Assembly: GCA_003054495.1 (NCBI GenBank)
Contig: CP028514.1
Span: forward strand, 918,501-982,500
Length of the DNA: 64,000 nt
Direction: 5' to 3'
Source: Carboxydocella thermautotrophica
GTDB lineage: Bacteria > Bacillota > GCA-003054495 > Carboxydocellales > Carboxydocellaceae
In this document: one piece after another, positions 5,100-60,082 of the stretch
How positions within the stretch are numbered: position 1 is the stretch's first letter
Layout: each line of letters opens with the position of its first letter
Notes under the pieces: model-generated
Database searches by the model: none
What the model was told of the DNA's origin: nothing
The model's input: the letters and a program-made list of their open reading frames with translations, nothing else
Position numbers and translations under genes: made by a program

Positions 5100-5129
5100 A
5101 GTGTAAGCAAAAAGCGCTGATCTTTTCAC

Positions 5130-5229
5130 CTACCTTCCCTCCGCCGGTATTATCCGTCTCAGGTTCAAAGGGTTAGAACGGTTCATCGCCCGTCCTTCTC
5201 AGCCCGGCTCAACGAGCACCCCCAGGTAG
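5130..5229 (-). promoter_or_regulatory. TPP riboswitch (THI box) aptamer
   Basis: Reading the minus strand, the sequence is closed by a P1 stem CTACCT/AGGTAG and contains the conserved THI-box elements in order: GGGGGTGCTC, GCTGAGA, CCTTTGAACCTGA, GGATAATACCGGCGGAGGGAAGG. These are the TPP-contacting consensus segments. It lies in the 5' leader of thiE and should switch off the whole thiE-F-S-G-H operon when thiamine pyrophosphate is abundant. Confidence 0.97.
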
Positions 5230-5249
5230 TATCACTATTGCTTTTTTTC

Positions 5250-12865: not shown

Positions 12866-14554
12866 ATGCCAAAGAAACACGAGAAGAACAAATTTAGCAT
12901 AACTGTGTGCGGGGAGTTTTTTCCGGAGATTTACCCGGCTCACCGGTCTTCGAAGTGGAGCCGGGGCGAAGAAGACCCGCTGACTACGGAGATGCGTCTC
13001 TTCTGTGCCTGTATGCGGTGGGCCTTTAACCGGCTCCTGGAAGGTGCTTCCCGCCATGAAATCAAGAAATCAGGACAAGAACTTTTCGGGCTGAACTCCC
13101 GCTATGCGGATGATGCCAGACTTAAAGCACAGGCCCTGCTGGACTCCCAAACAGAACTGCTGAAGTTAGAAAATGAAGAAACAGAAAAGAAACTGGGCCG
13201 GGCCAGGAAGAAACTCAGCCTGGCTATGAGGAAACTGGCGAAGGCAGAGGAAAAGGGGGCTGCTTCAGAAGTTATTGAAAAGCTCCGCCTGGCAGTCAAG
13301 GGGCGGAACAAGCGGGTGGTTTCACTGGCAAAAAGGCTGGCTGAACTGAAGGATTACCAGGAGAAGGGTACAATACCAGAGGTAGTCTTTGGGGGCAGAA
13401 GGCTATGGGAAAAGGTCTGCCAGGGCCGGGCCGCCCGTGAAAAATGGCGGCACGCCCGCAGGAACCGCCTCTACTCCCGGGGAGACGAGAGCAAGGGAGG
13501 CAACCCCAACATTAAGATATTTTATGGCGGACAGGACTTCCGCCTGGCGGTTTCCCTCTCCCACCTTTCTGAACAGACAGGCATAGATAAACTTGGTCGC
13601 CCCAGGATGAGCCAGGCCCCCAGGGTTGAGGGTAAGTTGTGGCTGCCGGAAAAACACCGGGAACTGGTGCAGATATGGCTGGCCATGAAGTTACCCTATG
13701 CGGTAGAACTGATCCGCACCCTGGAAGGACGCTATTTGGTACATTTGACATTTGAACTGGTCAGGGTGCAGGAACCGGACTTTGCTAAAGGTTGTCTGGC
13801 TATAGACACAAACCCTGATGGGGTAGCCCTGTGTAACGTTAGCGCTTCCGGCCAACCGGAGCCGTGGCCGGAGGGCTTCAGTGTTCCTTATCCCGGCAAC
13901 CTGGGCAAGTATGAAGGAGAGTTTCAGGTTATCCCTTACCCGAACGGCTTTCTTTATATCAGAATACCAGACTTAACCCATGCTTCCAGCTTCCGGCGTA
14001 GCTACCTGATAGGCGTTTTAGCCAAAGTAGTGGTAGATATAGCTTTCTTTTCAGGCAAACCCATTGTTTTAGAAAACCTGAACTTTGGCAAAGACAGACT
14101 GGACACTAATAAAAAGTTTAACCGCATGGCCTCCAATTTTCCATTTGCGAAAATGGTAGGGGCAATGTATCGGAGAGCGACAAAAGAAGGGGTGCCTTTC
14201 AAGTTAGTATCACCCCGGCATACTTCAACCATAGGTTACTGGAAGTATATGAAACGTTACGCCGTTCCGGTGCATTGCGCGGCGGCACTGGTTACAGGAC
14301 GCCGGGCAATGGGGTTCAGGGAACGGGTGACTGAAGAACTCAGGCAACTGGTATCGCAAATCAAGCAAAACCTGACCCGGAAGGTTAATCCTGATAGACC
14401 TGGGGAAGGAAAAGGGATGACCCGTGGGGTCAGGGCCTGCTTGAGGCGGCTGGAGGAGAGGCTTTCTGTGCATAACGGGCTTGCCCAGAGTGAGCAGGAG
14501 GCGTATAACTCCGTCTGGCCTGACCTGAAGTTATTGGCCCTGTCCGTACGGTGA
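12866..14554 (+). CDS. tnpB: TnpB-like RuvC nuclease of an IS200/IS605-type element
   Basis: A 562-residue protein of the large TnpB-related group: N-terminal RNA-binding-like region, a strongly charged coiled coil at about residues 90-155, and a split RuvC domain. RuvC-I Asp is D314 (LAIDTNPDG) and RuvC-II Glu is E403 (IVLENLNFGK). At the third catalytic position the usual D-x-N-A-A is replaced by H470 in VHCAAALV. The CxxC zinc ribbon normally just before it is absent, with SPRHTSTIGYWKY in its place. It is unclear whether this protein cleaves DNA. Start ATG at 12866; GGGGAG lies 10 nt upstream. No TnpA transposase gene accompanies it. The second copy at 40134 is broken. Confidence 0.88.
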   Translation: MPKKHEKNKFSITVCGEFFPEIYPAHRSSKWSRGEEDPLTTEMRLFCACMRWAFNRLLEGASRHEIKKSGQELFGLNSRYADDARLKAQALLDSQTELLKLENEETEKKLGRARKKLSLAMRKLAKAEEKGAASEVIEKLRLAVKGRNKRVVSLAKRLAELKDYQEKGTIPEVVFGGRRLWEKVCQGRAAREKWRHARRNRLYSRGDESKGGNPNIKIFYGGQDFRLAVSLSHLSEQTGIDKLGRPRMSQAPRVEGKLWLPEKHRELVQIWLAMKLPYAVELIRTLEGRYLVHLTFELVRVQEPDFAKGCLAIDTNPDGVALCNVSASGQPEPWPEGFSVPYPGNLGKYEGEFQVIPYPNGFLYIRIPDLTHASSFRRSYLIGVLAKVVVDIAFFSGKPIVLENLNFGKDRLDTNKKFNRMASNFPFAKMVGAMYRRATKEGVPFKLVSPRHTSTIGYWKYMKRYAVPVHCAAALVTGRRAMGFRERVTEELRQLVSQIKQNLTRKVNPDRPGEGKGMTRGVRACLRRLEERLSVHNGLAQSEQEAYNSVWPDLKLLALSVR

Positions 14555-17252: not shown

Positions 17253-17620
17253 TTACCCCTTGGGAGAATAAAAAGCGTAAAATCCCGGGGGGTTGGGGGC
17301 AGCACCTCCAATATAACCGTAGTTTGCTAGCTTGGAAGGTGATTGCGGATATCGAATTTTAATCCGCCGATATTACGGCTCCTACTGTGGGCAAACCTTC
17401 ATTTATGGACATTTTGAGATAATCACCAACTTATTCAGCCTGGCATCCGTCAGCTTATTCATGCGATTTCAATCATACTGTTAGGCTTATGAATTGTATG
17501 TTTTAAAATGAAATAAAGAGAATTTTGTCGATGTTTACAGAATTAAAAAAATAAAGAGTAAAAAGCGTTAAATTTGTTCCTTGAAAAAATTTTATAATAA
17601 TTATATTCTGTAGTAGATGA
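17253..17620. other. AT-rich intergenic stretch without recognisable gene
   Basis: Behind the intron's 3' end the composition changes to AT-rich. I see no supported coding frame or structured element here, only scattered stops in all frames. Confidence 0.5.
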
Positions 17621-17624
17621 GTGT

Positions 17625-17702
17625 GGGATAACTACAGGGCTACCTAATTATTCTTACTGGATCCCGTAAGGAAGAGTAGGAATTATTAGGGGCCTTTTTA
17701 TG
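17625..17702 (+). repeat. Leader hairpin repeat, copy A (degenerate)
   Basis: ACTACAGGGCTACC, a stem arm TAATTATTCTTACT, loop GGATCCCGTAAGGA, and the opposite arm GAGTAGGAATTATTAGGGGCC followed by TTTTT. Same element as copies B (18130-18213) and C (18828-18912) but with more mismatches. No intact gene follows within 500 bp. Confidence 0.75.
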
Positions 17703-18120
17703 TTGAAAATTTAGTAAAGATAAGTTTAAAGAGTTAGAAGAGACAGATTTGCTAACGGTCACCTTTTTATTGATTGTGCCAATTTTCACTATAGCTATCT
17801 TGAGAAAGGTATTAGATTTTTGTCCGCCTTTGATGGAGAAAAAACACCCATACCCATATTAGAACCTTTAAAACTTCATATAGTAAAGGTGGCCATTATA
17901 TTATAGCAAAGAAGAAGGTATTTGCTAGGTGCGGTCTTAAAGCATCTGGTAACGTTTACTAAACTTATTCTCTTATAGGTAGCTCGATGCTGGTTGAGTT
18001 TTTTTGGCTAGGACTTTACTAAATATATTAAACAATGTAAAATATTAAAAAATCACGAGAAACAAGGGATTTTATTGTTATTTGTAGTATATTTGTAGTA
18101 TAGACAAATTAAATTTATAT
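17703..18120. other. AT-rich stretch with decayed coding traces
   Basis: Short open pieces such as LFIDCANFHYSYLEKGIRFL occur in the plus strand around 17765-17830, broken by stops. They may be the remains of the gene that once followed leader copy A. I do not recognise a family. A direct repeat TTTGTAGTATA occurs twice in a row just before copy B. Confidence 0.4.
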
Positions 18121-18129
18121 TTTTAGCCC

Positions 18130-18213
18130 ATGGGTTTAGCAAAGCTACATGGCTACCTAATTATTCTTACTGAATCCCGAAAGGAGAAGTAAGAGTTATT
18201 AGGTAGCTTTTTG
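18130..18213 (+). repeat. Leader hairpin repeat, copy B, upstream of a DUF2294-like gene
   Basis: GCCCATGGGTTTAGCAAAGC, then GCTACCTAATTATTCTTACT pairing with AGTAAGAGTTATTAGGTAGC across the loop GAATCCCGAAAGGAGA, then TTTTTG. It looks like a leader RNA with a terminator-type hairpin. The following 40 bp, containing AAGGTAAAAAAA, CAAAAAAAGGGGG and then the ATG, are also shared with copy C. The ligand or regulator is unknown. Confidence 0.78.
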
Positions 18214-18255
18214 TTTTGATAAGGTAAAAAAAACAAAAAAAGGGGGATTTACAAA

Positions 18256-18603
18256 ATGGATAACAACACAAATGTTCTTGAATTTTCTCTGGCCAAGAAG
18301 GTGAAAAAAATCTTGAATAAGGGACCTGAAGAAACATTTATTTTTTTTGATCATGGGGTGATAATAATAAAGCTTAAAGGACTGCTAAATGGTACCCAAA
18401 AAGAGCTAATAAAAAAAAAAACTGATTTTAATTTTATTACAAAAAAATTTTTAGAAATTATTATTAATGATTGTGTTTTAAAAGAGTTTATAGAAGAAGT
18501 TGAAGAGTTATATAAAGTTAAAGTTGAAGAACTTACTAAGAAAATTGACATGGAAAATGATATATGTAAAATAGTTTTATTTTACGAAGAAGCTATTGAT
18601 TAA
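18256..18603 (+). CDS. DUF2294 / MpsC-like small protein
   Basis: A 115-residue cytosolic protein. The segment NKGPEETFIFFDHGVIIIKL then KGLLNGTQKELIKK resembles the start of DUF2294 proteins (GKGP..V.V...D..IVRLKG.LTP.EK.L). The C-terminal part, with FIEEVEELYKVKVEELTKKI and a final hydrophobic strand IVLFYEE, also fits. The family is of unknown biochemical function; one member, MpsC of Staphylococcus, is linked to inorganic-carbon uptake. The gene is AT-rich (Lys, Ile, Asn codons), unlike the host genes, and lies directly behind leader copy B with a GGGGG ribosome binding site. The assignment is by remembered pattern and moderately sure. Confidence 0.6.
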   Translation: MDNNTNVLEFSLAKKVKKILNKGPEETFIFFDHGVIIIKLKGLLNGTQKELIKKKTDFNFITKKFLEIIINDCVLKEFIEEVEELYKVKVEELTKKIDMENDICKIVLFYEEAID

Positions 18604-18827
18604 GAAGTAGTATTAGTATCTGAATTCGTGATTTTATAAATACATTGTGAAAAGATATTTAATGAACATTTTACATTTATTGGGCCGTAAGTAAGATAAG
18701 GCAAAATTACTCGAGTTACAAAATAATTTAAATAGTGCAGAATATTATTTCTTTTAGAAACAGAAAGGATTTCAACGACGTTTGTAGAATAATCTTTATA
18801 TAATAAATAGCAGTTTTAATATTTTGC
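18604..18827. other. AT-rich spacer
   Basis: No gene seen. Contains TATATAATAAATAG near 18797-18810, a possible -10 region for leader copy C, without a convincing -35. Confidence 0.35.
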
Positions 18828-18912
18828 CCATGGGTTTGTAAAAGCTACAGGCTACCTAATTATTCTTACTGGAATCCCGAAAGGAGAAGTAAGAATAATT
18901 TAGGTAGTTTTT
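18828..18912 (+). repeat. Leader hairpin repeat, copy C
   Basis: GCCCATGGGTTTGTAAAAGC, then GCTACCTAATTATTCTTACT and AGTAAGAATAATTTAGGTAG form a nearly perfect 19-20 bp stem around GGAATCCCGAAAGGAGA, followed by TTTTTG. The best-conserved copy. The downstream block (AAGGTAAAAAAA ... AAAAAAAGGGGG) matches copy B. Confidence 0.78.
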
Positions 18913-18939
18913 GCTTTTGTAAGGTAAAAAAATCAAAAA

Positions 18940-19012
18940 AAGGGGGAAGTCATAAAAGATGTAAAATGTTGAAAAGAATTTATGAATAAGGGAGATGTCT
19001 TAGGAATTATAA
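18940..19012 (+). pseudogene. Remnant of the start of a second DUF2294-like gene
   Basis: The stretch GTTGAAAAGAATTTATGAAT followed by AAGGGAGATG aligns with the codons for KKVKKILNKGP in the gene behind copy B but contains a stop codon. Similarity ends after about 20 codons. This indicates a duplicated leader-plus-gene cassette of which only the first part survives. Confidence 0.55.
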
Positions 19013-19030: not shown

Positions 19031-19351
19031 ATGTTTGTTTCAAAACAAACTTTAACACATGACTGTATGGCAATTCAACAGCTACTGGATTCTATGCGTG
19101 AAAATGAGAAATTTGTCGACTTACAAAATAGTCTAATTAAAGTAAAAACAAATGAATTAAAAAAATTGGCATTTGAAGTCGTAGAGGTTATTAATAAACT
19201 TAATTCCGACTATAAAGTATGTAAAACTGAATATGAGAATTTAAAGGTTAATTTTGATTCGTACAAAAATAGAATATGCTTATTGTTAAATGATTGTTTT
19301 GATATAAATAATAATGACTCATTAGCAGTAGTGTTGCATAAAATTTTTTAA
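19031..19351 (+). CDS. Small predicted coiled-coil protein, unknown function
   Basis: A 106-residue protein that I do not recognise. It is Lys/Asn/Leu-rich and mostly helical: LTHDCMAIQQLLDSMREN is followed by a long helix (VKTNELKKLAFEVVEVINKL) and a charged segment up to LLLNDCFDINNNDSLAVV. There is no signal peptide or membrane helix. A strong GGGAGGGG stands 5 nt before the ATG, which supports translation. It lies between leader copy C and the IS4-type element, in the same orientation as the chemoreceptor gene behind the IS. Confidence 0.6.
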   Translation: MFVSKQTLTHDCMAIQQLLDSMRENEKFVDLQNSLIKVKTNELKKLAFEVVEVINKLNSDYKVCKTEYENLKVNFDSYKNRICLLLNDCFDINNNDSLAVVLHKIF

Positions 19352-19431
19352 AATTTGTCAAGCTGGGAATTAATTCGATTTAACACAAAATAGGACGAAT
19401 TATGCGTTTTTTAGCTGAGAAATATAAAAAT

Positions 19432-19487
19432 CTCCTTTATAATAGAGATTAAGGGTAGTCCTTGCCCAAATCTCTAATATAAAGGAG
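19432..19487 (+). promoter_or_regulatory. Hairpin covering the transposase RBS
   Basis: CTCCTTTATAATAGAGATT and AATCTCTAATATAAAGGAG form a 19-bp stem with one mismatch. The AAAGGAG in the 3' arm is the ribosome binding site of the transposase (ATG at 19496). In read-through transcripts from outside this hairpin would block translation, a known safeguard of several insertion sequences. Confidence 0.75.
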
Positions 19488-19495
19488 AAGCTATA

Positions 19496-20740
19496 ATGCA
19501 AGGCAAGGATATCACAAAATCCACATTTTTTCAATTGTTTCAGCCAATTTTTCACGAAAAAATTTTTCAGCTTATTAATAACGCAGGTGTTGACAAATAC
19601 GTTAAAAAACTGACAGCACTTAAGCTATTCTATCTTCTGGCCTATGCCCAGTTAGAACAATTAAAAGGTCTACGGGATATTAGCAATAGCTTAAATAACG
19701 ATCTTCAAAGTATATGCATTGCTCTTGACTCTATAAGCCATTCTCAGATATCACGTAGGCTGAACGCATTGCCAGTAAGCATTTTTAAAGCAATCTTTCA
19801 AGATCTTACGCGGCAAATTGGAGAGAAAGTTGGTTTCCAGAAAATCCGTAATTCATTGGGACGTATTTATCTAATTGATGCCTCGGTTATTAGCTTGTGT
19901 CTAAGCCGTTATCGCTGGGCAGAATTCCGTAAAGAGAAAGGCGGTATAAAACTTCATCTCAGGCTTAATTTGTTTGGGCAAGGGGTCCTGCCGGATTGCG
20001 CAACAATTACCACAGCAAAACATAGTGATAAGACAGAAATGGACAATCTGATAGTTGAAGAGAAGGATGCAATTAATATTTTTGACCGCGGCTATGTTGA
20101 TTACAAGAAATTCGATCACTACTGTGAAAAAGGAATAGGTTTTGTAACTCGTCTCAAGTCAAATGCTGTGGTGTATGTGCAAAAAGAATTGCCACTTTCG
20201 CCGGAAAGCGAAATTAGCAGGGATTACATAGCTATCCTGGGCTGGGGTTCATCAAGAATGAAGCACCCTGTACGTCTGATTGAAACAACGGATACAGAAG
20301 GGAATCAAATTACAATTGTAACGAATGTCTTTGAAAAGACTGCCGAAGAAATCGGGCAGTTATATCGCTACCGCTGGCAGATTGAAATTTTCTTCAAGTG
20401 GCTCAAGCAACACCTGCACGTCAAACATTTATATGGTCTTGGTCAGCAGGCAGTAGAAAATCAGTTATATATCGCATTGGCAACATACTGTTTATTGAAG
20501 ATGATCCAAATAAGGACAGGGTGTGAAGGCTCACTGCTGACTGTAAAAAGGCTTGTTTGCGCCTGTCTTTATGAGCCCTACGAGGTATTTAGGAAAAAAC
20601 TATGTAAACAGAAAAAGCGAACGTCCAAAGGACGACGAAGACTAAATTACGAAGCAATATATGAGTTAACAGTAAGGCAAGTAATGGACGGAGAAACAAA
20701 TTTTCTGAATGAAGTGAGTTATGACCCAATTATATTGTAA
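19496..20740 (+). CDS. IS4-family DDE transposase
   Basis: A 414-residue transposase. N-terminal DUF4372-like region (STFFQLFQPIF), then the DDE catalytic domain with D in YLIDASVISL (about residue 126), D in INIFDRGYVDY (about residue 196) and the YREK-type signature YRYRWQIEIFFKWLKQHL carrying the catalytic Glu (about residue 302). It appears full length and without frameshift, so it may be active. AT-richer than core genes. The ribosome binding site AAAGGAG is inside a hairpin. Confidence 0.92.
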   Translation: MQGKDITKSTFFQLFQPIFHEKIFQLINNAGVDKYVKKLTALKLFYLLAYAQLEQLKGLRDISNSLNNDLQSICIALDSISHSQISRRLNALPVSIFKAIFQDLTRQIGEKVGFQKIRNSLGRIYLIDASVISLCLSRYRWAEFRKEKGGIKLHLRLNLFGQGVLPDCATITTAKHSDKTEMDNLIVEEKDAINIFDRGYVDYKKFDHYCEKGIGFVTRLKSNAVVYVQKELPLSPESEISRDYIAILGWGSSRMKHPVRLIETTDTEGNQITIVTNVFEKTAEEIGQLYRYRWQIEIFFKWLKQHLHVKHLYGLGQQAVENQLYIALATYCLLKMIQIRTGCEGSLLTVKRLVCACLYEPYEVFRKKLCKQKKRTSKGRRRLNYEAIYELTVRQVMDGETNFLNEVSYDPIIL

Positions 20741-20878
20741 AGCAAAATGGCTGACAAAATGTGGAATAGGACTACCCTCTATTACCACTAGCCCTTTTGG
20801 CCAAAGAACTGGAGTCCTTAATTACATATAATTACATAAATGTCATATATACCATAATGCGTAATGACCAAAACATAG
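20741..20878. other. IS right end and gap before the chemoreceptor frame
   Basis: Contains the right terminal repeat of the IS (near 20768-20783) and an AT-rich stretch. There is no ribosome binding site in front of the chemoreceptor frame, whose upstream in-frame codon at 20876 is a stop. Confidence 0.5.
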
Positions 20879-23692
20879 TTGACTACCATTCATAAAATTA
20901 ATGCAACGCTACTGGACTCATTAGTTAATTTTTTAGAAAAAATCGCTGAGCAAGGAAATGCATTATTAGATGAATCTAATAAGCTGAAAAACAATCTAGA
21001 CCTTGATATCAACAATAACCGATATTTAGATGATTTGAAAACAATTATATTGAATATAAATAATGTGATTAACAATATTTTCATTGAAACAAAAAATATT
21101 AATAATAACACCACTCAGCTGGCCTCAGGAGCAGAAGAAATCACCAGCACCATCAACGAGATGAGTGCCTCGATAAAGAATGTATCAGGGGATACTGAAA
21201 GCCTGGCAGAAGCCATCAAGGAGATAGTGGAACTTAACAGCAGCATGGCAGAAGGGATAAAAGGTGTAGCTCAGAATGTAACAGAGCTGGCCTCAGGAGC
21301 AGAAGAAATCACCAGCACCATCAACGAGATGAGTGCCTCGATAAAGAATGTATCAGGGGATACTGAAAGCCTGGCAGAAGCCATCAAGGAGATAGTGGAA
21401 CTTAACAGCAGCATGGCAGAAGGGATAAAAGGTGTAGCTCAGAATGCAACAGAGTTGGCCTCAGGAGCAGAAGAAATCACCAGCACCATCAACGAAATGA
21501 GTGCCTCGATAAAGAATGTATCAGGGGATACTGAAAGCCTGGCAGAAGCCATCAAGGAGATAGTGGAACTTAACAGCAGCATGGCAGAAGGGATAAAAGG
21601 TGTAGCTCAGAATGCAACAGAGCTGGCCTCAGGAGCAGAAGAAATCACCAGCGCCATCAACGAGATGAGTGCCTCAGTTGAAGGAGTTGCCAGTGATATT
21701 CAGACTTTGACTGATTCCATAAATGAGATTGACTCATTAAATAATAATTTAGCAAGAATTGCAAGCAATATTGCCAGCGAAACAGATACTCTTTATTCCA
21801 GCACAGATAATATCAGGATTAACATCGAAAAAATGGAGCAATCATTTGAAGAAAATATTTATTTGGCAAATGAGTTGGACAAAAATTTAACTGATTCAAA
21901 AAGTAACATTGAGTCAGTAATTAAAGATGTGATTGAGGTATCGAACAGTGTCATAGATCTTACAGGGGACTTAAAACAAGAAAACGGAAACATTAGCACT
22001 TCTATTATTCAGATGAACAATGCTATAAATAATATTTCTGCTTCAATGAGTACTATTGCTGCAGCTACTGAAGAAGTGTCTGCGGCTCTTGAAGAAGTTA
22101 ATGCTACAAATTACGATATAGAAAACAATGCTCAGAAAACTTATCAATTTGCAGAACAAACTCTTGAGTTATGCAGAAAGGGAGTAGATGCGGTAAACAG
22201 CAACTTGGAAGGATATGAACAGGTAAAAAATGTTGTTATGAATGCAGCGCAAGTTATGAGTGTATTAAGTAAAAGAAGTGATGAAATTGGTACAATTGTT
22301 GATATGATTACTGACATCGCAGAACAAACCAACTTACTGGCCCTAAATGCTGCAATTGAAGCTGCAAGAGCCGGTGAATATGGAAGAGGGTTTGCGGTTG
22401 TAGCAGATGAAGTGAGAAATCTTGCGGAAAGGTCTGCTAAAGCCGCTAAAGAGATTGTCTTACTAATTAAAAACATTCAAACTGAATCAAGTAATGCTGT
22501 TAAAGCAATAAATGAGGGAGTCAAAACCGTTGATGAAGGTATAAATCAAGCGGCGATGACAAGAGATGTGATTATTTCGGTAGAAAAGAATATGGAACAA
22601 ACGGCAGATTTTATGGGACAAATTGTAAATGCAGTGTCAGAAACATCAAAAGCTATTAGCCAGGTCAGTGATGCAGTTATAAATATTCAACAACAGAGTG
22701 AACAAGTCGTTAAGGGATTGAATGAACAGTCTCAGGGTGCAGCTCAAATAATGAACGCTATAGATAGTGTAGCAAACAAAACTGAGAAGTTGTATGAGAT
22801 GGCACGCGAATCCGGGGAAAAAAGTAATGAAATGGAAAAACAAATAGTAGACACTTTAAACAAATCCCTTGGACATGTTGAGGATATAAAAACCGCTATT
22901 GAAGACCAGGCTAAAGGTGCAACTCAAATTACTGCTTCAGTCAAACAAATTAATGATCGTGCAGCGGTTCTCGCAGAAATGGCAAAACAAATGGCAAATG
23001 ATAGTAAAATTATTGTGGAACGGGTAGCACATGTAAGACAGATGGGAGAACAGATATCTGTAGCCAGCCGTGAACAGGCAAAAGCAGCGGAACAGATTAC
23101 TGTTGCAATTGAAGACATAGCAAATCAGACCGTACAAGTGGCTGGTGCAATGCAGAAGATGGGAGAAGAAAGTGATAAAGTAGTAGAACGGGTAGCCCAT
23201 GTAAAACAGATGGGAGAACAGATATCTGTAGCCAGCCGTGAACAGGCAAAAGCAGCGGAACAGATTACTGTTGCAATTGAAGACATAGCAAATCAGACCG
23301 TACAAGTGGCTGGTGCAATGCAGAAGATGGGAGAAGAAAGTGATAAAGTAGTAGAACGGGTAGCCCATGTAAAACAGATGGGAGAACAGATATCTGTAGC
23401 CAGCCGTGAACAGGCAAAAGCAGCGGAACAGATTACTGTTGCAATTGAAGATATAGCAAATCAGACCGTGCAAGTGGCTGGTGCAATGCAGAAAATGGGT
23501 GAAGAACAGGGTAAGGTGGTAGAAAGCTTGAAAGAGATTGACAAGGTCTTAAAAGATTTGACTATGGATGTCAATAAAGATACTGTTAACCCAGTTTATC
23601 AAATGGATAAAAAAATAGAAGAATTGCTAAAGGTGGTTAATGAAGTAAAAGAAAAGTCTATGAAATTAATGCTAAACTACAATAGAATATAA
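20879..23692 (+). CDS. Large soluble methyl-accepting chemotaxis-type receptor with tandem repeats; start unclear
   Basis: The frame has 937 codons and is almost entirely predicted coiled coil. It has no transmembrane segment, HAMP or recognisable sensor domain. The signalling tip is canonical: [20 protein letters not shown] then [18 protein letters not shown] (about residues 482-517). Three near-identical 56-residue units lie on the N-terminal arm (about 80-266) and three unrelated 56-residue units on the C-terminal arm (about 713-882). Fifty-six residues are exactly eight heptads. The frame opens directly behind an in-frame TAG with TTG and no ribosome binding site. The first in-frame Met is near residue 95. 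The true 5' end may therefore have been lost when the IS4 element inserted about 90 bp upstream. No CheR-docking pentapeptide at the C-terminus. Confidence 0.85.
21121..21675 (+). repeat. 168-bp in-frame tandem repeat, N-terminal arm of the receptor
   Basis: Unit beginning GGCCTCAGGAGCAGAAG recurs at 21121, 21289, 21457 and 21625 (exact 168-bp spacing). The first three units are full and nearly identical and the fourth is identical for about 50 bp before diverging. Encodes [18 protein letters not shown] and onward, 56 residues. Confidence 0.95.
23013..23520 (+). repeat. 168-bp in-frame tandem repeat, C-terminal arm of the receptor
   Basis: CGGGTAGC recurs at 23021, 23189 and 23357, again exactly 168 bp apart. 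Units encode [20 protein letters not shown] and onward, 56 residues. The sequence is unrelated to the N-terminal repeat but has the same length. Confidence 0.95.
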
Positions 23693-23755: not shown

Positions 23756-24562
23756 ATGAAAAGTTTGCTAAGAGATACAATTTATCAACTAACTGGTAAT
23801 GTATTAAGTAATAGCAAAATAGATCGTATCGAAAATCAATTAGTAAAAATATACAATCTAAAGACAACTGAATTAAATGAATTTATTACTTCGAATTTAA
23901 AAACCTCAGAGTTTAGAAAAATATTAATCGATTTAGCTACAATAAATGAAACTTATTTTTTTAGAGAAGAGCATTTGTTGGATACCATGATATATTTGTT
24001 GAAAAAGTCTCCTTTTTATAAAGATATTTTTATTTGGAGTGCTGCGGCGTCTACTGGTGAGGAAGCATATAGTATAGCAATAAAAATTTTAGAGTCTGGG
24101 TTAATATTGCCGAATACCAACTGGCAAATAGTTGGTACAGATATAAACCCGTTAAATATCGAAAAAGCTCGTCAAGGCTGTTACAATAAAAATAGTTTTA
24201 CTTTCAGACAAGTAAAAAATGAAAAATTAATAAAAAAATATTTTAGTAGGCACCCGGATAACCATGATATTCTTATAGTTAAAGATAGTATAAAGAACCA
24301 TGTAATTTTTCATGTAGCTAATTTAATAAATTTAAGTGATCTAGAAACAAAAATTGGCAATATTAAATTTAATATAGTCTTTTTGAAAAATGTATTATTT
24401 TATTTTGATTCCGATAATAAAAAAATTGTTTTGGATAATATATATAATTTTATGGAAAGAAATAGTTATCTTATTTTAGGTTCCTCTGAGTCAATATACA
24501 ACATAAAACATAATTTTATCAGATATGAAATTAATAACTCTATTGTTTATAAAAAAATATAG
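23756..24562 (+). CDS. cheR: CheR-type protein-glutamate methyltransferase
   Basis: Methylates receptor glutamates using SAM. 268 residues: N-terminal helical domain, then INETYFFREEHLL (conserved N-E-T-x-F-F-R) near residues 63-75, the SAM loop WSAAASTGEEAYSIAI (usually WSAGCSTGEE) near 95-110, GTDINPLNIEKAR, and FLKNVLFYFD. In the last motif the usual CRNVLIYF has Lys in place of Arg. No TPR or fused domain. AT-rich like its neighbours. The ribosome binding site GGGGGGCGACGA precedes the ATG. Its substrate is most likely the receptor encoded just upstream. Confidence 0.92.
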   Translation: MKSLLRDTIYQLTGNVLSNSKIDRIENQLVKIYNLKTTELNEFITSNLKTSEFRKILIDLATINETYFFREEHLLDTMIYLLKKSPFYKDIFIWSAAASTGEEAYSIAIKILESGLILPNTNWQIVGTDINPLNIEKARQGCYNKNSFTFRQVKNEKLIKKYFSRHPDNHDILIVKDSIKNHVIFHVANLINLSDLETKIGNIKFNIVFLKNVLFYFDSDNKKIVLDNIYNFMERNSYLILGSSESIYNIKHNFIRYEINNSIVYKKI

Positions 24563-24595: not shown

Positions 24596-25744
24596 ATGAG
24601 ATATGAGTTATTTGAGAAAATTTATGATATTGATTCGAACATGAATATTAAGGAAATTTTATTAGCTACTATCAAGTCGATAGTACAGGCAATCGGGGAA
24701 AGAGATCGGTATACGAGAAAACATTCAGAGAATGTAGCAGCATATGCTAAGATAATTGCTAATGAGCTAAGACTTTCTCAGGATGAAATCGAAAAGATTT
24801 ATTTGGCGGGATTATTTCATGATATAGGTAAGATAGGGATTCCAGATTATATACTGAATAAGCCGGGGAAATTAAACGATGAAGAATTAATGTTTATCAA
24901 GGAGCATCCTCGAATAGCCTGTCGTATTTTGGAAAGCTTTGATATTTTTAAGGATATTTTACCTGCAATTGAGCAACATCATGAACAGTGGAACGGTAGT
25001 GGATATCCCTTTGGCTTGATTGGGGAATCGATAGATCTAGGGGCAAGAATTATTGCGGTTGCAGATGCCTTTGATGCCATGATTACTGATCGGGTATATA
25101 GAAAGGGAATGAAGCAGGATGAAGCAATAGATAACTTAATCAAAGGTGCCGGTCAACAATGGGATCCTGAAATTGTGGACGTATTTGTCCGCTGGTGGGA
25201 AAAAATGTATAATCCTCAAGGTAAACATGACTGGAAACTAAAATACGTAAGAACTATATACAAGGATTTTTTAAATGATGCAACAGAAGGCAAGGTTATT
25301 CTTTTAGATGAAAGCGATATTGAAAAGTACAAAGAAGATTATAAAGTTTACGGTGAAATGCCAGTTTTATACTATCGGGACCTGATTGAGGCCAGAAAGC
25401 TTTTTAATGAATTTCTGGATCAATTAGATATTAACAAAGAAAAACAGCGTATTTACATTCTTGTTTTTTCAGAACTGGTAAACAATATTTTAAAACATGC
25501 TGAACGCGGTATGGTAGAATGGGGGATTGACAATTTTGATGATTTGGTTTTGACTGTTAATGATTATGGTCCCGGGTTTTTGCTGGAAAAGCTGCCACAA
25601 AGTTTGTTAATCAGTGGTTTTTGTACCACAAATACACTAAAATCAGTTGGATTAGGGTTGCCGTTTGTGTTAAAATATTGTAAAAAGTTAACAATTGCCA
25701 ATTGCTCAGGTGGTACCTTTATTTCTGTAAAGCTGACTAAATAA
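24596..25744 (+). CDS. HD-GYP phosphodiesterase fused to a GHKL ATPase domain
   Basis: 382 residues with two domains. Residues 20-200 form an HD-GYP domain with H43, HD at 75-76 (LFHDIGKIGIP), HHEQWNGSGYP at 128-138 and RIIAVADAFDAM at 151-162; all metal ligands of active c-di-GMP phosphodiesterases appear present. After a linker, residues 265-380 form a histidine-kinase-like ATPase (GHKL) domain with the N-box ELVNNILKHA (293-302), G1 NDYGPGF (322-328) and G2 SVGLGLPF (350-357). This resembles anti-sigma/RsbW-type kinases rather than full sensor kinases, since no phospho-accepting His domain is seen. The pairing is unusual. It suggests that c-di-GMP hydrolysis is linked to a partner-switch kinase. 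Starts 34 nt after cheR. Confidence 0.9.
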   Translation: MRYELFEKIYDIDSNMNIKEILLATIKSIVQAIGERDRYTRKHSENVAAYAKIIANELRLSQDEIEKIYLAGLFHDIGKIGIPDYILNKPGKLNDEELMFIKEHPRIACRILESFDIFKDILPAIEQHHEQWNGSGYPFGLIGESIDLGARIIAVADAFDAMITDRVYRKGMKQDEAIDNLIKGAGQQWDPEIVDVFVRWWEKMYNPQGKHDWKLKYVRTIYKDFLNDATEGKVILLDESDIEKYKEDYKVYGEMPVLYYRDLIEARKLFNEFLDQLDINKEKQRIYILVFSELVNNILKHAERGMVEWGIDNFDDLVLTVNDYGPGFLLEKLPQSLLISGFCTTNTLKSVGLGLPFVLKYCKKLTIANCSGGTFISVKLTK

Positions 25745-40133: not shown

Positions 40134-41751
40134 ATGCCAGAGAAACACGAGAAGAACAAATTTAGCATGACTGTGTGCGGGGAGTTTTTTCCGGAGATTT
40201 ACCCGACTTACCGGTCTTCGAAGTGGAGCAGGGGCGAAGAAGACCCGCTGACTACGGAGATGCGTCTCTTCTGTGCCTGTATGCGGTGGGCCTTTAACCG
40301 GCTCCTGGAAGGTGCTTCCCGCCGTGAAATCAAGAAGTCAGGACAAGAACTTTTCGGGCTGAACTCCCGCTATACGGATGATGCCAGACTTAAAGCACAG
40401 GCCCTGCTGGACTCCCAAACAGAACTGCTGAAGTTAGAAAATGAAGAAACAGAAAAGAAACTGGGCCGGGCCAGGAAGAAACTCAGCCTGGCTATGAGGA
40501 AACTGGCGAAGGCAGAGGAAAAGGGGGCTGCTTCAGAAGTTATTGAAAAGCTCCGCCTGGCAGTCAAGGGGCGGAACAAGCGGGTGGTTTCACTGGCAAA
40601 AAGGCTGGCTGAACTGAAGGATTACCAGGAGAAGGGTACAATACCAGAGGTAGTCTTTGGGGGCAGAAGGCTATGGGAAAAGGTCTGCCAGGGCCGGGCC
40701 GCCCGTGAAAAATGGCGGCACGCCCGCAGGAATCGCCTCTACTCCCGGGGAGACGAGAGCAAGGGAGGCAACCCCAACATTAAGATATTTTATGACGGAC
40801 AGGACTTCCGCCTGGCGGTTTCCCTCTCCCACCTTTCTGAACAGACAGGCATAGATAAACTTGGTCGCCCCAGGATGAGCCAGGCCCCCAGGGTTGAGGG
40901 TAAGTTGTGGCTGCCGGAAAAACACCGGGAACTGGTGCAGATATGGCTGACCATGAAGTTACCCTATGCGGTAGAACTGATCCGTACCCTGGAAGGACGC
41001 TATTTGGTACATTTGACATTTGAAGTGGTCAGGGTGCAGGAACCGGACTTTGCTAAAGGTTGTCTGGCTATAGACACAAACCCTGATGGGGTAGCCCTGT
41101 GTAACGTTAGCGCTTCCGGCCAGCCGGAGCCGTGGCCGGAGGGCTTCAGCGTTCCTTATCCCGGCAACCTGGGCAAGTACGAAGGAGAGTTTCAGGTTAT
41201 CCCTTACCCGAACGGCTTTCTTTATATCAGAATACCAGACTTAGCCCATACTTCCAGCTTCCGGCGTAGCTACCTGATAGGCGTTTTAGCCAAAGTAGTG
41301 GTAGATATAGCATTCTTTTCAGGCAAACCCATTGTTTTAGAAAACCTGAACTTTGGCAAAGACAGACTGGACACTAATAACAAGTTAGTATCACCCCGGC
41401 ATACTTCAACCATAGGTTACTGGAAGTATATGAAACTGGAAGTATATGAAACGTTACGCCGTTCCGGTGCATTGCGCGGCGGCACTGGTTATAGGTCGTC
41501 GGGCAATGGGGTTCAGGGAACGGGTGACTGAAGAACTCAGGCAACTGGTATCGCAAATCAAGCAAAACCTGACCCGGAAGGTTAATCCTGATAGACCTGG
41601 GGAAGGAAAAGGGATGACCCGTGGGGTCAGGGCCTGCTTGAGGCGGCTGGGGGAGAGGCTTTCTGTGCATAACGGGCTTGCTCCGTGTCAGCAGGAGGCG
41701 TATAACTCCGTCTGGCCTGACCTGAAGTTATTGGCCCTGTCCGTACGGTGA
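40134..41751 (+). pseudogene. Broken tnpB-like gene, copy 2
   Basis: Same protein as copy 1 up to about residue 417. Near 41383 codons for 29 residues (the FNRMASNFPFAKMVGAMY region) are missing in frame. At 41421-41452 the 16-mer TGGAAGTATATGAAAC occurs twice in tandem, which shifts the frame. The C-terminal part with VHCAAALV continues in another frame to 41751. The product would lack the last RuvC segment, so it is almost certainly inactive. Confidence 0.93.
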
Positions 41752-48882: not shown

Positions 48883-48972
48883 AAGGTAAAAATCCCTGGT
48901 TCCCGGCAGGAAATAAGGTAATAAAAGCGAATAAATTACAATTGTACATATAGATAGAAAGGAGATAAAAAC

Positions 48973-49518
48973 ATGCGCGCTCTTGACCGTTTTCTCCTGG
49001 CAGTGTATTCTTTTATCGTTGGTTTAGGAATGGTAATACTGGCTCTTTACAGCCTGGGCTGGAATTTGCCTGCTTTTTTACTGGAAGAAAGCATGGGTTC
49101 TAGCAATTTTCGCTATGCTATGTTTGTTCTGGCTGTTATTCTGTTTTTATTGAGTGTACGCTTTCTCATTTCCGTTTTTGAACGCCGGGTTATCCCCCAT
49201 ATTTTGATTAAAGACAATCCACTGGGTCAAGTACATATCAGTGTGGAAGCCATTACCGGACTGGTTTCCAGGACTGCCTTCCAGTTGCCCGGAGTGCGGG
49301 AATGCCGGGCTCAGCTGGCCATGACTCCGGCCGGGTTGCAGATTCTGATTCGCCTAACCGTCAGCGGTGAGTTAAATCTGCCTGAACTGCTGACCTCCCT
49401 GCAGGAGGAGATCAAGCAGCGGCTGGCGCAAGTGGTGGGGCTGGAAGTCAATCAGATTCGGATACTGGTCACCTCCCTGCAGCCTGAAACCACTACCAGC
49501 AGCGGAAAGGTCAGGTGA
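48973..49518 (+). CDS. amaP: Alkaline shock response membrane anchor protein AmaP
   Basis: 181 residues, two N-terminal membrane helices (FLLAVYSFIVGLGMVILALY and YAMFVLAVILFLLSVRFLIS) and a cytosolic Asp23-like domain (GQVHISVEAITGLVSRTAF). AmaP anchors Asp23 at the membrane. AAAGGAG before the ATG. It starts a unit with DUF2273 and nusB. Confidence 0.92.
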   Translation: MRALDRFLLAVYSFIVGLGMVILALYSLGWNLPAFLLEESMGSSNFRYAMFVLAVILFLLSVRFLISVFERRVIPHILIKDNPLGQVHISVEAITGLVSRTAFQLPGVRECRAQLAMTPAGLQILIRLTVSGELNLPELLTSLQEEIKQRLAQVVGLEVNQIRILVTSLQPETTTSSGKVR

Positions 49519-55944: not shown

Positions 55945-56620
55945 GAGCAATGATTCATCAGCCTGGCCGCTACGGTGGCAGGTGGTGCAGTATCCTAGTC
56001 GGCCGCAGCGTTTTTGAAGGCGGGCCTAAAAATCCGTCAAAGGGCACATCGATGAAGTTCCTGGTGTCGGCTTTCGACGCCCCGTCGGGGGTTGGTGCTG
56101 GGAGTTAAGGAAGATGGGGCGATCCACAAGGGCATGTGGGCGTTGACCCCGCTTCCGCGGAGGCCCAAGTGCGTGGTGACCTATGGCGAGTAGGAAGCTA
56201 TGGCTTGGGGTTGAACCTGCAATTCATTATCCTGTTACGGCAGGATGGTGGGTGCAGTGTAGCCTGCCTTGAGCGGGTGTAGAGGATGGCGAGCTATCAG
56301 GCCTTTTAACCGATGGCGCCGAGGTTAAGGGACCTGTCGCCTGAAACTGCATCTGCAAAAGAGGCTAGAAGACGCCGGCGGTCGCCGAAGAAATTTCCTA
56401 GGCTGCCCACCAGAGATGGAGTTTGCTGGGGATTAAAGTGTGGACTAAGTGGTAATCCAGTCTTGCCGGCGGTGACGCGGCAAAACGATGGGAAAGGGGA
56501 AACCGCCTCATGCGGCGACGCAGAGGAGCATCGTCTGGGAAAACCTACTGGACCTGAAGCCACAACGTTTACTCAGCAGACTACCACCTGCCAGTAGTAG
56601 CTGTTACATATATTTTTTTT
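55945..56620 (+). ncRNA. ole: OLE RNA (ornate, large, extremophilic)
   Basis: An 800-bp gap without supported gene between ispA and oapA. It holds a conserved-looking, GC-rich, heavily paired sequence of about 650 nt, ending near a T9 run at 56612. The 5' part GCCTGGCCGCTACGGTGG and the 3' part CTACCACCTGCCAGTAG pair over a distance. Size, position between ispA and dxs, and the adjacent oapA gene identify OLE RNA. It forms a membrane-bound ribonucleoprotein linked to stress responses in extremophilic Firmicutes. Short frames inside (for example 56313-56597) are not genes. Ends are estimated from the promoter and T-run. Confidence 0.92.
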
Positions 56621-56633
56621 TATCATTTAAGAG

Positions 56634-57266
56634 GTGACCGGATTGGGTAATAATAATCATAAATTGAGGGCACAGGTGCGGCGCCAGGTTTTAGTTGTAG
56701 GTTTATTGACTTTCTTTACAGCTATGGCTATCAGCAGTGGGACGGAAGCGGTTGTAAACCGATTTCCCTCGGCACTGGCGGCTTTGCCCTTTCTGTTAAT
56801 TATCATCGCTGTAGGCATTATTTTTGATATGATCGGAGTGGCAGCCACGGCTGCTGCAGTAGCTCCGTTTCATGCCAAAGCAGCGCGAAAAATTCCAGGC
56901 GCAAAACAGGCGATTTCTCTCCTCAATCATGCTGATAAAGTGGCCTCTTTTTGTAATGATGTGATTGGTGATATTTGCGGTACAGTCAGTGGTGGACTGG
57001 GAGCAACTATCGTTTTTTTATTAGTCAGCAGTCATCCGGACTGGAATAAAGCCTGGTTGGGCACCATCATGACCGGTTTAATTGCTGCTGTTACCGTCGG
57101 AGGCAAGGCTGGTGGGAAAAAGCTGGCCATTGACCATGCAGAAGAAATCATCTTCCTGGTCGGCCGGTGCCTGGCCTGGATTGAAAGGCAAACAGGCTGG
57201 ACGCTGTGGCCGGACAAGAAAAATAGCAAGGGCGGGAGAAAGAGGAATGACCACTTCAATTCTTAG
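56634..57266 (+). CDS. oapA: OLE-associated protein A (OapA)
   Basis: 210-residue integral membrane protein with four predicted helices ([67 protein letters not shown]) and a basic C-terminus ([13 protein letters not shown]). [20 protein letters not shown] is typical of this family. It binds OLE RNA and tethers it to the membrane. The gene follows the RNA by about 15 nt; start at 56634 with GAGGTGA before it, possibly a TTG at 56643. Overlaps dxs by 20 nt. Confidence 0.92.
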
Positions 57267-59981: not shown

Positions 59982-60082
59982 TTTTTTTTAACAAATAGCA
60001 GGAAAACAAAAAGAAATATAGTATATAATATTTATCAGAGCAACAGGAAATAGTATGACACATTTCCTTATTAGCGAAGGCG

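Follow-up and report, generated by a model that had tools for sequence, protein, structure and literature searches.

A repeated terminator-type leader element in Carboxydocella thermautotrophica, with two of its four copies ahead of chemotaxis genes

Background

Leader RNAs targeted by the ANTAR proteins EutV, NasR and AmiR carry one or more small hairpins just ahead of an intrinsic terminator and overlapping its base (PMC3369931), and the same paper also notes an ANTAR target close to an MCP gene. The element described here, found in four copies (A-D) in Carboxydocella thermautotrophica 41T, is likewise arranged. Two ANTAR proteins are encoded in this genome, at C1:2289123 and C1:2314647, and AGCAAAGCU in copy B resembles the ANTAR 13-mer AGCAANGRRGCUY. 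The copies were compared with the ANTAR target, which consists of two tandem hairpins, each with a 3-bp stem and a hexaloop A-N-N-G-N-N, the second overlapping the terminator. No hairpin with this hexaloop (A in position 1, G in position 4) occurs in any of the four copies, and this assignment was rejected. Leaders of the BglG/LicT (RAT) type have a short RNA structure that excludes the terminator base, as is proposed here; the element differs from them in that it has no Rfam match and no BglG-type or PTS gene was recognised near any copy.

The c-di-GMP-I (GEMM) riboswitches and other riboswitches in Rfam have a terminator-type platform in common with the element. GEMM riboswitches often precede chemotaxis genes. 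By eye, GCAAAGCTAC in copy B recalls a GEMM stretch, and a resemblance to preQ1-I was seen in the same way; both were set aside as being without Rfam support. The Rfam scan gave no credible match to the element at the gathering threshold or, with permissive filters, at E 10, which agrees with the first-pass annotation of this DNA, where the element could be matched to no known class. That annotation had named two findings as contrary to its view, an assignment to a known Rfam class and a random placement of copies with respect to genes, and neither was seen.

Results

The window analysed is a stretch of 64,000 nucleotides of the 41T genome. This strain has a chromosome plus a 53,067-bp plasmid (PMC6085454), and its assembly totals 2,743,125 bp, of which 2,690,058 bp are in the main contig. 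Three copies lie on the plus strand of the window: A at 17612..17700, B at 18125..18213 and C at 18825..18913. Copy D (C1:38133-38225) was revealed by a whole-genome search, 900 kb from the others, between fixX and the cheW-cheA operon. The sequence common to A, B and C, including GGCTACCTAATTATTCTTACTG and ATCCCGWAAGGA, together with their folds and the T5 that closes each of them, bore out the three related copies first noticed. B and C further have in common the 5' block GCCCATGGGTTT and the A-rich sequence that leads to the RBS, as had also been stated, and this is reflected in the BLAST homology blocks (A 17601-17709 with B 18115-18222; B 18114-18247 with C 18816-18947). The repeated block runs from ~10 nt 5' of the P1 helix described below to just beyond the T-run in the A/B pair, or to the RBS in the B/C pair. 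Copies A-C sit in an AT-rich stretch at ~16-26 kb of the window, having a GC content of 26-40% vs ~52%.

A covariance model, R1, was built on the four copies and scores them at 87-108 bits (A 94.2, B 108.3 and C 87.4 bits). Such a search had been proposed as a check at first reading, and it returned only the four copies within the species. On the host genome these were accompanied by weak self-complementary reverse-strand matches at the same places, and the same four copies were recovered in G101, a draft genome of a sister strain. Nothing convincing was found in a further 396 genomes sampled from the phylum, in the remaining two members of the class, or in 10 + 83 genomes belonging to two other classes (~490), a search in which strongly diverged homologues could be missed, as its stricter filters lose weak matches and the model holds four sequences. 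A 29-bit match in one genome (G424) is chance-like, the element's own reverse strands scoring 24-32 bits. A GTDB-wide pattern scan gave two MAG matches, which are unrelated and not matched by R1, and BLAST matches in another genome (G085) appear inside coding sequence. Searches of IMG/VR, plasmids and phages gave no match to the element, and a literature search found no paper pairing riboswitch candidates with Carboxydocella. The element is a real, repeated and unclassified terminator leader, seen so far in one species.

A stable hairpin followed by a run of T5-T6 is present in all four copies, which is the form of an intrinsic terminator. The folding energies of A, B and C are -30.7, -37.9 and -35.2 kcal/mol, with z values of -3.4, -6.1 and -5.1. 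In B, the best-preserved copy, the hairpin spans 18151..18212 (+) with ~20 pairs plus an apical 3, followed by T5, and its base shares GGCU with P1. A simple terminator scanner did not list the hairpins of the copies, probably owing to the internal loop. A, B and C have the same 5' arm, GGCTACCTAATTATTCTTACT, and the differences among these copies are confined to the 3' arm, where they amount to wobbles, an indel or lost pairs; the earlier statement that compensating differences keep the stem is therefore not confirmed in that form. The sole double change in the stem comes with D (G-C to A-U, columns 29/88).

Ahead of the terminator a short helix, P1, encloses a hairpin, P2, of the form GGUUU-N4-AAGCU or GAACC. 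In B they occupy 18125..18154 (+), where AGCC 18125-18128 pairs with GGCU 18151-18154 and, within P2, GGUUU 18133-18137 pairs with AAGCU 18142-18146. In C, P1 enclosing P2 lies at 18826..18852 (+), with GCC 18826-18828 against GGC 18850-18852; P1 is AGUC/GACU in D and consists of three in-register pairs in A. Both helices are in register in all four copies, one pair of P1 being lost in each of A and C and two pairs of P2 in A. At pair 3/29, B and C have C-G, whereas D has U-A and A has U-G; pair 10/23 is G-U, G-C or A-U across the copies. The RNAalifold energy of this 34-nt 5' part was -6.3 vs -0.6 +/- 1.0 in column shuffles, none of 500 being as good, in a control on four sequences for which both the alignment and the structure had been picked by eye. 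The proportion of P1/P2 cells that are paired is 88.9%, vs at most 54% when the structure is slid by 1-3 columns. Covariation in P1/P2 was no higher than in shuffles (187/500; four sequences), and among the four copies folded singly the 5' part was significant for D only.

The 3' strand of P1 is formed by the first 3-4 bases of the terminator 5' arm in B, C and D, so P1 and the full terminator are predicted to be mutually exclusive. The cost of the P1-closed state is +3.8 (B), +0.6 (C), +1.4 (D) and +8.3 kcal/mol (decayed A). P1 closure is thus cheap in B, C and D (0.6-3.8 kcal/mol), which makes a choice between P1 and the terminator base a plausible on/off switch. It is established for intrinsic termination that detaching the stem from the U-run weakens termination. 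From the predicted folds, P1 would spare most of the terminator stem but part it from the U-run, and should weaken termination in this way. Two other pairings were considered and rejected: AAAGCUAC with GUAGCUUU, which would hide the U-run, is possible in B and fails in A and D, and a pairing of AAAAGC with GCUUUU, 3' of the T-run, is seen in B and C but is not kept in D.

Upstream of the element, 27-nt motifs resembling sigma-H (Spo0H) promoters were found. They were scored against RNAGGAWWW-N11/12-RNNGAAT, a consensus drawn from general knowledge and from that published for Listeria (PMC4754846). The putative promoter of C, AAAGGATTT-N11-GTAGAAT at 18764..18790 (+), agrees at 13/13 positions and ends 34 nt before P1 (0/3000 shuffles; chance at this offset <0.0003). 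That of B, AAGGGATTT-N11-GTAGTAT at 18064..18090 (+), agrees at 11/13 and stands at the same distance of 34 nt from P1 (P ~0.005 from shuffles), while that of D agrees at 12/13 and ends 31 nt before P1 (chance at offset 0.0003). Since B and C may stem from an old duplication, their promoter matches are not fully independent. B and D differ from the consensus in having GTAT in place of GAAT. The pattern AGGAWWW-N11-RNNGWAT occurs four times in the window against 0.23 expected, and copy A has no sigma-H-like motif at the corresponding offset. Sigma-H-like motifs are also present in intergenic positions at window 48908-48932 and 60000-60024, ahead of genes at 48973 and 60083.

The genes behind the copies were then compared. 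No intact gene was recognised behind A, nor anywhere in the A-B interval 17700-18064. A DUF2294/MpsC-like gene of 115 aa (18256..18603, +) begins 40 nt behind B; its Pfam match is weak though above the cut-off (28 vs 23 bits), and it is the sole MpsC gene of the genome. In G101 this frame is broken, a poly-A tract being two bases shorter. The difference at this tract (window ~18408-18420) between 41T and G101 may be slippage, decay or an assembly error. A search for related loci with the DUF2294 protein gave no relatives, and a literature search on DUF2294 gave nothing pertinent to the element. Behind C, ~21 nt remain of a sequence similar to the beginning of the gene of B, followed by an MCP gene with its first part at 19031..19325 (+); the frame of this gene is split in 41T by an IS element of 1589 bp (19326..20914, +) and resumes at 20925..23692 (+) with the MCPsignal domain. 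The IS carries a DUF4372/DDE transposase (19496-20740) and is flanked by a 10-bp target duplication, GACTCATTAG. It is absent in G101, where the site is empty and the MCP frame is open through to the contig end; the insertion in 41T is recent. The MCP-like ORF at window 20879-23692 contains near-identical internal repeats, ~56 aa at its N-terminal part and others near the C-terminus. Downstream lie cheR (23756..24562, +) and a gene for an HD (HD_5) + HATPase protein (24596..25744, +).

The claim that two copies are tied to DUF2294-like genes accordingly does not stand as made, and the copies do not cluster upstream of such genes: when this was tested, B alone preceded one, C preceding MCP and D preceding cheW. 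The DUF2294 link is weak because C is followed by MCP-cheR-HD and the frame behind B is broken in G101. Since C and D stand at unlinked loci and both precede chemotaxis genes, the shared theme is chemotaxis in place of DUF2294. The copy before cheW, the common promoter motif and P1/P2 are points added here to what was first noticed.

Copy D follows a fixX-like ferredoxin gene at a distance of 65 nt and stands ahead of a cheW-cheA-cheC operon, beyond which are cheD-, cheY-, HD- and cheX-like genes (cheD, cheY and cheX being named by sequence reading). A second sigma-H-like promoter, a perfect one, stands between the terminator of D and cheW (L012 5263-5289; C1:38262-38288). Upstream of cheW in two order-level relatives lacking the element, similar motifs are found, matching 12/13 with N12 (L036 ~1265-1292 and L037 ~1388-1415). 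With its own perfect sigma-H site, and similar sites in these relatives, cheW is probably independent of read-through. Because of this second promoter, D may be an extra attenuated cheW promoter, a short free RNA or the terminator of the fix operon. Sigma-H control of chemotaxis is possible, the cheW-operon promoter motif being present in the host and two relatives of its order.

Discussion

The reading that we tentatively place first is a lineage-specific leader, ~115-125 nt long, that attenuates transcription. RNA polymerase would start at the sigma-H-type promoter, and the nascent RNA would first fold the P2 hairpin within the short P1 helix, then the terminator. With P1 closed, the terminator would lose the pairs beside the U-run and read-through would follow; with the terminator formed to its base, transcription would stop. 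The predicted gap between the two states in B, C and D (~0.6-3.8 kcal/mol) is small, and a bound protein, a metabolite or a condition could tip the balance. Read-through at B and C would lead to expression of the DUF2294-like gene and of MCP-cheR-HD, and at D to extra transcription of the cheW-cheA operon, in addition to that from the operon's own promoter. We infer that P1 forms in the cell, acts in antitermination and is itself regulated. The earlier description as a terminator-type leader of an unknown class is best fitted by B and C, in each of which a promoter-like motif is followed by a structured 5' part, then a terminator and then a gene, but a riboswitch cannot be claimed because the element comprises four copies in one species.

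A bolder form of this proposal is doubtful: a new small riboswitch or protein-controlled antiterminator, with the ~30-nt P1/P2 as aptamer, which would tune the chemoreceptor and CheA/CheW under sigma-H-dependent transcription in Carboxydocella only so far. If the element is a real switch of either form, it would provide an RNA-level control point that the core chemotaxis operon has in common with a chemoreceptor cluster in a CO-oxidising thermophile. To our knowledge, few leader RNAs are known for the control of chemotaxis genes.

The attenuator is ranked ahead of two other readings. The second in rank, which we judge unlikely, is that an ordinary intrinsic terminator, which at D would end the fix operon and at A-C transcription from upstream, was copied with its flanks, P1/P2 and the promoter motif being meaningless. 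The place of D behind fixX is where a terminator is expected, one relative has an unrelated terminator directly behind fixX, and the covariation in P1/P2 is not significant. Yet D resembles A-C across the P1/P2 part as well, outside the hairpin, the promoter motif is repeated at a constant distance, no intact gene was recognised in the A-B interval, and B and C stand directly ahead of genes. Even if the element is only a copied terminator unit, the first reading is corrected from DUF2294 to chemotaxis.

Ranked third, and slightly less probable again, is a duplicated promoter-terminator unit that yields a short free-standing RNA of ~115 nt, the copies forming a sibling sRNA family with incidental read-through. 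B, C and D each combine a promoter-like motif 31-34 nt ahead with a strong terminator, and at D the following gene has its own promoter behind that terminator. The 5' arm is also more conserved than the 3' arm, as if its sequence mattered (variable columns in A, B and D: 3 vs 8, a small-number observation); this conserved stretch is, however, buried in the stem, and elsewhere the genome has no matches to the 5' arm beyond short chance ones. The genes of B and C, which lie within 40-120 nt of the terminators, would moreover be left promoterless, as by eye no other promoter was recognised in between.

It is very improbable that a transposase has spread the element as a palindromic mobile repeat (REP- or MITE-like), a reading for which the long palindrome, the several copies and the IS and group II intron remains in the AT-rich island might speak. 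In place of many randomly oriented copies with terminal repeats or target duplications there are four, all on the plus strand and pointing the same way with respect to the genes behind them, the conserved block outruns the palindrome on one side, and the terminus of the nearby IS (CAGTAGTGTTGCATAAA) is unrelated.

Other features of the window

Near-identical copies of a TnpB/OrfB-like protein (562 aa, identified by eye) are encoded at window 12866-14554 and 40134-41531, the second being truncated and the first having no significant Pfam match. The Rfam scan located a TPP riboswitch on the minus strand at window 5119-5233. An OLE RNA (RF01071, 488.6 bits) lies at window 55966-56603, flanked on one side by a polyprenyl-synthase-like gene and on the other by the gene at 56634.
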